64,000 bases of DNA from Methanoculleus sediminis (lineage in GTDB: Archaea; Halobacteriota; Methanomicrobia; Methanomicrobiales; Methanoculleaceae), in assembly GCF_001017125.1 (NCBI RefSeq), contig NZ_JXOJ01000001.1:328133-392132 (forward strand), in the 5' to 3' direction. The notes under the pieces are model-generated. The model was not told where the DNA came from and did not search any database. It saw only the letters and a program-made list of their open reading frames with translations. This document shows, one piece after another, positions 43,749 through 46,200 of this stretch. A program made the translations under genes and the position numbers. The number at the start of each line of letters is the position of its first letter. Position 1 is the first letter of the stretch.

Positions 43749-43750
43749 CT

Positions 43751-43825
43751 TACGAACCATCGCGTTACGAACCATCGCGTTACGAACCATCGCGTTACGA
43801 ACCATCGCGCTCCGAACCGTCGTGA
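43751..43825. repeat. Tandem 15-bp repeat, four units plus a degenerate fifth
   Basis: The unit tacgaaccatcgcgt is repeated head-to-tail at 43751, 43766, 43781 and 43796 (the last with one change), then a diverged copy at 43811. There are no spacers, so it is a minisatellite and not a CRISPR. Confidence 0.95.
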
Positions 43826-44002: not shown

Positions 44003-44845
44003 TTACTCGGGCTTGCTGATGAGGGCGGTCTTCGAGACGATCTCGCCGGTCTTCTTGTGGGGCTTGCGGATGACCGCGTCCATACCCTTCTCGAGGTCGC
44101 GTGCTTCCTCGCAGAGGATCATGGCCTGGCGCATCATCTCGTGGGCGCTCGAGACGATCGGGATGTATTTCTCCCACTCCTTCGTCATGAAGCAGCCCTT
44201 GACGTTGACGCCTGCAACCGACTGTGCGATCTCGTAGGCCGCACGGGCCTTCGCGAGCGCGTAGGGGTTGCTGAACTCGCCGTCGACCGCCTTGTCGGAG
44301 GTCATGACGACCTTCGGGAGCGCGAGGTCCGCGCCCTTCTTGCCTGCCTTCACCTGGTCGATGACCTTGTCGAGCTCCATCTGCATCTTGCGGAACGCAC
44401 CGGTGATGGCGAGCACCTTCACGAGGTTTCCGTTGTAGTCCGCCATCTCGATGGGGTCGAGGAACTCACGGCGGGCGCCGATCATGGCGTCGGCCTTCAT
44501 GATGATGTAGCCGAAGTTGCTCGCCTTGAGCGCTTCGAACTGCTCCTTCTTGGTGGTGACATCGTCGGTGATGACGATGCAGGGGATTCCGGCCGCTGCA
44601 AGGTCTTCACGGGCCTGGGTGGGTCCGGGGAGGACGCCGTTCGGGGAAACGACGATACAGAAGTCCGGGCCCCATGCCTTCATATTGCTGACCACACGGT
44701 CGATATCCTCGGGCTGCAGCTTCGTGCCGGAGGTCGCCATGAAGGTGATCATGTCCTCACGGTCAGCGCGCTCATCGAGAAGAAGTTCACCCATTACACC
44801 ACTGGCGATATTTCCCAGTTTTGCAATTCCAACTTTTACAACCAC
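44003..44845 (-). CDS. mtd: F420-dependent methylene-H4MPT dehydrogenase
   Basis: 280 aa from GTG. Mtd reduces methenyl-H4MPT to methylene-H4MPT with F420H2, the step before Mer. Family N-terminus [30 protein letters not shown] is visible, as are [11 protein letters not shown] and [16 protein letters not shown]. The GTG at 44845 is preceded by GAGGTG (44851-44856) at 5 nt and gives the family N-terminus; an in-frame start at 44887 would add 14 unconserved residues and lies upstream of the predicted transcription start. Heavily biased codons. Confidence 0.97.
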
Positions 44846-44865
44846 TTTAACACCTCTCAAAATTT

Positions 44866-44893
44866 GAGAACACGATAGTATCACCAAGTTCTC
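44866..44893. promoter_or_regulatory. 28-bp dyad at the mtd transcription start
   Basis: GAGAAC (44866-44871) and GTTCTC (44888-44893) form an inverted repeat with a 16-bp spacer. It begins right after the mtd TATA box (TTTATAT on the minus strand, 44894-44900) and covers the predicted start near 44872. A repressor bound here would block mtd. Confidence 0.5.
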
Positions 44894-44900
44894 ATATAAA
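44894..44900 (-). promoter_or_regulatory. TATA box of mtd
   Basis: TTTATAT on the minus strand predicts transcription from about 44872 and a leader of about 27 nt with GAGGTG. Confidence 0.6.
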
Positions 44901-44956
44901 CGTTTTGAAATGCCACGAAAATTCCGTCCAATAACGGGAGGGGTTAAGGAAAAGTG

Positions 44957-44964
44957 TTTAAATT
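44957..44964 (+). promoter_or_regulatory. TATA box of the Tfx-family gene
   Basis: TTTAAATT lies 22-29 nt before the ATG at 44986, predicting a leaderless mRNA. Confidence 0.5.
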
Positions 44965-44985: not shown

Positions 44986-45390
44986 ATGAAACAAGGTCTG
45001 CTCACCGATCGCCAGAAGGAAGTGTTGCGCTACCGGAAGAAAGGGCTGACGCAACAGCAGATTGCGGAGATCATCCACACCTCAAAAGCCAACGTCTGCA
45101 CCATCGAGAAAGCTGCACTTGAGAATATAGCGCGTGCACGCGAGACGCTCGAATTCCTCTACACCCTCGACGCCGTGCATCTCTGTACGCTTGAAAGCGG
45201 CCTCGACCTGCTCAAGGCACCGGAGTTCATCTATGCCGAAGCCGAGAAGCAGGGGTTGAAGGTCAAATACGACACGATCTCGCTCATAAACAGGCTTCGG
45301 GACGCAAACCCCGAGCGGTTCAGGGGGAGGCAGGTTCGCGAGGACGTTGAGATTTATATCAACAAAGACGGCGATCTCTACTTCGGGTGA
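44986..45390 (+). CDS. tfx: Tfx-family DNA-binding transcriptional regulator
   Basis: 134 aa. N-terminal helix-turn-helix (about 5-50: [25 protein letters not shown]-like with [14 protein letters not shown]), then the Tfx C-terminal region ending [13 protein letters not shown]. In Methanothermobacter, Tfx binds DNA near the molybdenum formylmethanofuran dehydrogenase operon. Here it is divergent from mtd, so control of mtd or of itself is plausible, although not shown. Confidence 0.9.
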
Positions 45391-46171
45391 TGCGGTTCAT
45401 CGGGCGCGCACACGGGCTCCGTGCGGGAGCGGGAGCCCTGCAGGAGCATGCCTCGCGGTCACGCAGCATGAACACAACCGTTGCAGCCCTTCGTTCATCC
45501 GCCGGACCGCTCGCCAGGCGAACCGGTGCCGCGCATGCAGCAACGAGGCGGTTTGCGCAAAATCCCAAAAGATCCGATAACAAGGTTTATATCTCATTTT
45601 AAGTAATGTTTAAGAAACCGCTCTGCATGATTCCGCCCGGATCCGGGGAGCAGCCGGCACCGTATGTGCCTCTGATTCCCGACATGGGTTCTCATATCGC
45701 ATATGTGCGGATTGAGGACTCGCGGCGGGGCGTGCAGGAGGTACAGAGACACAAGGTCGAACCCTCCTCACGGAGGGCCGATGTCGATATGGAGTTGTGC
45801 TCGTCACAACGGGATGACAGGAGCTGGATCTGATCGAGACGCTGGGCCAACGCCAGTGCAGCGCGCCCGGTTCCGGGAAGAGTGTTCCCGGGAGCGTCGA
45901 AGAGTCAGGATCTATTGGCGACGACTGGAATGCACCCGGTGCACACCGGGACGGCAGCAGAGAGAGCGGTCGAGGCGCACGGAGACGAATGTCTTTGTGA
46001 CTTCACGTTCCGCTGCCTCCATCAACTGTTTCCCTTACGCTACGGCAAAACGGCGTGGCGTTCGATATCCCGCCCCATCCGGGTTCGCCAGAGGGCTTAC
46101 CATGCCGGTGCGTCCGGCACGGGGCCCGGCGCACGCATCGCACTGCAGCGAGCCTGCAGTCGATGCCTCAC
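45391..46171. other. Unassigned 780-bp tract before the ribosomal operon
   Basis: Between tfx and rpl3. A good TATA-like GGTTTATATC (45584-45593) predicts transcription from about 45615. A 75-codon frame (45606-45833) has fair third-position GC but no recognised family, and its ATG is slightly upstream of the predicted start; a second ATG at 45627 would fit. I found no tRNA, and no confident RNase P or SRP RNA. It may be a small RNA, a small protein, or a long ribosomal leader. Confidence 0.4.
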
Positions 46172-46179
46172 GCTATAAC
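46172..46179 (+). promoter_or_regulatory. Candidate TATA box of the ribosomal superoperon
   Basis: CTATAACG is 22-29 nt upstream of the rpl3 ATG and would give a leaderless mRNA. It is a weak match to the archaeal consensus. Confidence 0.35.
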
Positions 46180-46200
46180 GCACGAAGGGTTGATTGAAAA

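Follow-up and report, generated by a model that had tools for sequence, protein, structure and literature searches.

What is a Tfx-family regulator doing beside a methanogenesis gene? Elsewhere tfx lies next to molybdenum/tungsten (Mo/W) genes, yet in Methanoculleus sediminis it lies next to mtd, whose product catalyzes a step using neither metal. The known targets of Tfx-family regulators are few, and an earlier note on this DNA had proposed a local Tfx-mtd circuit with a dyad over the mtd start as the Tfx site. We followed up both proposals in the whole stretch of 64,000 nucleotides that was analyzed (the window) and in related genomes.

The divergent tfx-mtd pair

44003-44845, minus strand: mtd, F420-dependent methylene-H4MPT dehydrogenase (PF01993 363.7 bits, NF002162 428.6 bits, above cut-off)
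44986-45390, plus strand: tfx, Tfx-family DNA-binding protein of 134 aa (TIGR00721, PF14601)

The mtd start codon is the GTG at 44845-44843, placed by relatives that have ATG at the same site. That the divergent neighbor encodes a Tfx-type protein, as the earlier note had read it, was borne out by scores above the curated cut-offs for both families (TIGR00721, 120.2 against 60.25 bits; PF14601, 108.2 against 27 bits). The protein is related in sequence to PDB entries 8hno, listed as an archaeal transcription regulator, and 1nr3; we take 8hno to be EnfR. Downstream of mtd, at about 43750-43820 of the window, a short tandem repeat is seen as recurring peptide words in spurious open reading frames.

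Eighty mtd loci were fetched, and tfx was searched in 199 genomes of the order Methanomicrobiales, of which 187 had a match and the best 30 of these 187 were fetched. Both genes are present in 104 of the 111 loci with either gene, and all 104 pairs are divergent; since the two fetches overlap, the 104 loci amount to 87 distinct intergenic regions. Seven loci were dropped, five with a flank too short at a contig edge together with L050 and L065 (Candidatus Methanofilum arcanum and bin Lab288P4bin101). The latter two carry mtd without tfx within 3.0 and 2.0 kb upstream, respectively, and are real exceptions. Among 148 genomes drawn from the whole phylum, the divergent pair was present in 25/25 Methanomicrobiales genomes with both genes and in 0/19 outside the order, where tfx and mtd lie on different contigs in 13 of the 19. 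The evidence for a conserved divergent regulator-target arrangement across Methanomicrobiales is strong. Because the pair is fixed in the order and absent elsewhere, a local Tfx-mtd circuit stays plausible, but the dyad as its site is not supported by the results below. The pairing itself is genuine and suggestive; that Tfx controls mtd is unproven, and among the papers listed in a literature search none reported a Tfx-mtd link or a Tfx-family target in Methanomicrobiales.

Of the 19 genomes outside the order, eight supplied the nine tfx loci that were read, and eight of these nine loci (L241 and L243-L249) adjoin Mo/W-type genes. In four of these the neighbors score above curated cut-offs: two loci have FdhD, one has FwdB and FmdE together with a MOT1-type molybdate transporter, and one a MobB/MoaE protein. 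In the other four they match tungstate or related ABC-transporter families (WtpA/WtpC-like) below the NCBIfam cut-offs. No Mo/W gene was seen by eye among the tfx neighbors read at L242. Taken with the position of tfx at fmdECB in Methanothermobacter, described below, these neighbors make Tfx look like a Mo/W-linked family to which the mtd pairing would be an exception.

The two genes may then be mere neighbors, with Tfx serving Mo/W genes elsewhere in the genome and not acting on mtd. It is established biochemistry that Mtd is not a Mo/W enzyme, and the distance between the mtd BRE and the conserved element at the tfx promoter (see below) varies between 29 and 779 bp, a range that also argues against a fixed joint operator. 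A divergent pairing in all 25 order genomes with both genes would, however, be unusual for chance, and we regard simple adjacency as possible but rather doubtful.

The mtd leader

44894-44911, minus strand: mtd TATA box (44894-44900) with upstream BRE-like block ATTTCAAAACG (44901-44911), from the alignment of 86 promoters
44869-44873, minus strand: predicted mtd transcription start, about 44871 +/- 2, placed by TATA spacing
44865-44894, no strand: dyad TGAGAAC-N16-GTTCTCA, an exact match, with both arms in 24 of 86 distinct promoters
44854-44870, minus strand: 5'-leader hairpin/palindrome TTCTCAA-ATT-TTGAGAG (fold -4.9 kcal/mol, z -1.9; both stem arms co-occur in 39/39)
44851-44858, minus strand: mtd Shine-Dalgarno GAGAGGTG, partly within the hairpin, with GAGGTG conserved order-wide

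Read along the mtd strand, the elements follow one another as ATTTCAAAACG-TTTATAT-GAGAAC-N16-GTTCTC-AAATTTTGAGAGGTG-TTAAA-GTG(start), and TTCAaAA.gTTTATA is near-invariant in the alignment of 86 promoters. The dyad GAGAAC-N16-GTTCTC, said to span the predicted start with one end at the mtd TATA box, was found exactly there (GAGAAC at 44866-44871 and GTTCTC at 44888-44893 of the forward strand, 16 bases apart), and its arms are actually 7 bp long (TGAGAAC, 44865-44871; GTTCTCA, 44888-44894). On the mtd strand, GAGAAC (44888-44893, here the spacer arm) directly follows the TATA box TTTATAT (44900-44894), and GTTCTC (44866-44871, the leader arm) starts ~26 nt past the TATA center. The mtd transcript would thus begin at, or at most 2 nt from, the G of GTTCTC.

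The arms were counted in 86 distinct tfx-mtd promoters of Methanomicrobiales, whose rows are related, so that the counts are not independent events. The leader arm is present in 39/86, the spacer arm in 27/86, both in 24/86 (all Methanoculleus-like) and neither in 44/86. Fifteen promoters have the leader arm alone and three the spacer arm alone (L015, L020, and L106), so that 18 of the 42 promoters carrying either arm lack the other. Among the loci of the spacer-arm clade, six (L011, L018, L019, L022, L023, and L113) alter the spacer arm and keep the leader arm, and three do the reverse. A coordinated change of both arms was found in none of the 86 distinct promoters. The expectation that relatives with the same gene order keep the half-sites therefore fails for the order as a whole, although inside the genus Methanoculleus both arms are highly conserved.

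The leader arm keeps a different partner. Each of the 39 leader arms is accompanied by TCTCA-N3..9-TGAGAG at the Shine-Dalgarno, and the pair occurs in 0 of the other 47 promoters. It is found in Methanoculleus-like, Methanocalculus, Methanocorpusculum and Methanomicrobium-like loci, whereas the spacer arm is limited to Methanoculleus-like ones. The pattern TCTCAN{3,9}TGAGAGGTG is strictly single-copy in 30 of 35 Methanoculleus genomes; the other 5 lack it. Of 20 pattern loci fetched, 19 gave an mtd match (L192 gave none), and in 19/19 a gap of 3-4 nt separates the end of the pattern from the start of the mtd match. With a single copy per genome and mtd directly downstream, the pattern is specific to mtd in this genus.

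As a hairpin the leader folds weakly, also in three relatives (z -0.8 to -1.4), with no fold in L077, which is without the pair; Rfam gave no match for the leader at E up to 1. Among 15 distinct hairpins, pairs 1, 2, 3, and 5 are invariant, three hairpins break pair 4 and three break pair 6. Pair 7 reads A-T in nine hairpins and T-A in three, and does not form in the remaining three (permutation p 0.02, rows non-independent). As four outer pairs do not vary, the covariation comes from one pair.

The same stretch is a palindrome in DNA, TCTCAAA-A-TTTGAGA (44856-44870), with perfect 7-bp arms and a 1-bp center; 4.4% of shuffles contain such a palindrome with spacing up to 3. Read as a double-stranded operator just 3' of the start, to which Tfx or some other protein would bind, it accounts for the same leader data, and Methanothermobacter Tfx is reported, in the available part of the source, to bind DNA 3' of the fmdECB promoter (PMC3087415). 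But the TCTCA-to-TGAGAG spacing ranges from 3 to 9 nt among lineages, which fits an RNA loop better than a protein dyad, usually of fixed spacing, and the palindrome is missing from 47/86 promoters despite a nearly identical Tfx helix. We consider a DNA operator in the leader unlikely.

The dyad and the tfx promoter element

The statistical significance of the dyad in the 141-bp intergenic region is weak. An exact inverted repeat with arms of at least 6 and spacing 0-24 is present in 60.5% of 1000 dinucleotide shuffles, one with arms of at least 7 and spacing up to 24 in 22% of 2000 shuffles, and one with arms of 6 and a spacing of exactly 16 in 3.4%. A window-wide scan at up to 2 mismatches gave 9 dyad matches against 3.67 expected, only the copy at the mtd start being exact. 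In the whole genome, 13 places match at up to 1 mismatch (2 for a reversed control), and two of them are exact, the mtd-start copy and one other. The earlier note had suggested looking for the same half-sites at fmd/fwd promoters; four FwdB-bearing stretches of the M. sediminis genome (55 kb) contain no dyad with a spacing of 8-24.

Pairwise identity among the 24 loci of the Methanoculleus clade is 94.5% between the mtd TATA and the start, against 52% in the mid-intergenic part. This conservation was rejected as evidence for Tfx, since the promoter of the rpl3 operon (TATA 45586-45592) is about as conserved by eye from TATA to start (ten loci; L017 not found) and the leader of one fwd operon is near-invariant in seven Methanoculleus genomes; spacer conservation does not single out mtd. 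The 17-mer GATANTATCGTGTTCTC was likewise set aside as a regulon motif: at 0-2 mismatches it finds only mtd in its own genome, and at 3 mismatches there are 19 further matches, in excess of the 2 per strand of a reversed control. The mtd BRE/TATA word ATTTCAAAANGTTTATATNNNNAC has 3 matches in the genome at up to 3 mismatches, one of them upstream of a fwd operon, and these are BRE/TATA-like.

Two further features were seen along the way. The rpl3-led ribosomal operon (46201) has a seemingly conserved promoter at 45586 followed by a ~600-nt leader with GC-rich inverted repeats (window 45586-46200). The fwd operon with the near-invariant leader is divergent from ftr, both named by eye (L169:10340-10530; about 423.3-423.5 kb of contig C1 in the M. 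sediminis genome), and its leader in L169 contains a palindrome, ATCGATTTTTAATCGAT, and an upstream ATTTCAGAAAGTTTATG block resembling that of mtd.

The recognition helix of Tfx, ending in [AS]A, is near-invariant across Methanomicrobiales, so that its operator would be expected order-wide, which the dyad is not. The reading of the dyad as an operator is therefore weak: exact 7-bp arms over the start, their near-invariance in the genus, the fixed gene pair and the position of the known EnfR site near the start codon of its target (PMC10570040, in the part available) speak for a local circuit through this site, at least in Methanoculleus, but the independent loss of arms, the clade-limited distribution, the frequency in shuffles, the fwd stretches and the rpl3 spacer make it the most improbable of the explanations considered here.

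The tfx promoter offers a better candidate.

44943-44963, plus strand: tfx promoter element GTTAAGGAAAAGTGTTTAAAT (GTTAA box, BRE, TATA), candidate Tfx site, conserved order-wide

GTTAAnGAAAAGTGTTTAAAT (44943-44963) occurs with up to 4 mismatches in 82/86 promoters, where the minimum in shuffled sequence is 7, and lies 20-26 bp 5' of the tfx start codon, with GTTAA near-invariant in 22 thinned lineages. At up to 3 mismatches it is found in 31 of 41 genomes of the order, mostly as a single copy, and in the M. sediminis genome only at tfx. Judged by the TATA of the element, tfx transcription would start about at the ATG and give a probably leaderless mRNA. That Tfx binds GTTAAnGAAAAGTGTTTAAAT, the best candidate, is our guess drawn from its conservation, and the conserved BRE and TATA could come from the basal machinery. 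In ten tfx loci outside the order, inspection by eye of the 100 bases 5' of the extrapolated start of the match showed no GTTAA-type element; these bases are mostly coding-looking and the loci presumably mostly haloarchaeal.

On balance we lean towards two arms under different constraints in place of one operator, with a leader hairpin and an element on the tfx side. mtd would be transcribed from the TATA at 44894-44900 with a start near 44871, and the leader arm would form the first bases of the transcript, kept through pairing with TGAGAG at the Shine-Dalgarno. The resulting small 5' hairpin would partly cover the ribosome-binding site of this gene alone, with a probably modest effect on translation or on 5'-end stability. 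The other arm would belong to the spacer between TATA and start, and its conservation is confined to Methanoculleus-like lineages. On the opposite strand tfx would be transcribed divergently, Tfx may regulate itself via the GTTAA-BRE-TATA element, and any effect on mtd would be indirect or via another site. The weak fold, the one covarying pair and the three lineages that break the stem count against this explanation.

A bolder scenario, which we would entertain only tentatively and think unlikely, is that in ancestral Methanomicrobiales a Mo/W-linked Tfx came to lie beside mtd and now links metal status to this F420-dependent step, acting via the order-wide GTTAA-BRE-TATA in the tfx promoter and on the mtd promoter next to it; the gene-specific leader hairpin would add a second layer at mtd. 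The tfx promoter element is the most useful lead, with the mtd leader hairpin second: a fixed tfx-mtd pair and a sharp, near single-copy element provide a specific stretch of 21 bp on which binding could be tested.

Comparison with known systems

Leader hairpins at ribosome-binding sites are a general known kind. The mtd leader resembles them in its short stem beside the Shine-Dalgarno at the 5' end of the mRNA, but the predicted stem is weak and without an Rfam match.

The Tfx of M. sediminis shares its family with EnfR (TON_1525) of Thermococcus onnurineus, a repressor of the codh cluster, and both have a sigma-70 region-4-like HTH and a TFX_C domain. According to the available part of the source, the EnfR site is a 36-bp pseudo-palindrome with half-sites one helical turn apart and HTHs about 36 A apart (PMC10570040). 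The dyad arms at mtd lie 22 bp apart center to center, which does not fit that HTH separation, and by eye the half-sites are unlike the CnTCnTAnAATnT given there. The EnfR contacts R35, R43, and R44 correspond to K34, K42, and A/S43 in Tfx, with K34 in 105 of 106 loci (one not covered), K42 in 104/106 and A or S43 in 103/106. As far as that part of the source goes, the target of EnfR is codh, whereas the neighbor of Tfx here is mtd.

The Methanothermobacter protein (MTH0916) is of the same family, and in the part of the source available tfx lies directly 5' of fmdECB (PMC3087415, citing Hochheimer 1999), transcription of tfx is repressed by tungstate and Mtd synthesis is listed as nickel-regulated (PMC3087415). 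There, tfx precedes fmdECB, whereas in M. sediminis it is divergent from mtd. In both organisms, to the extent covered by that source, tfx adjoins a gene of the CO2-to-methane pathway, and PDB 1nr3 is matched by the protein described here.
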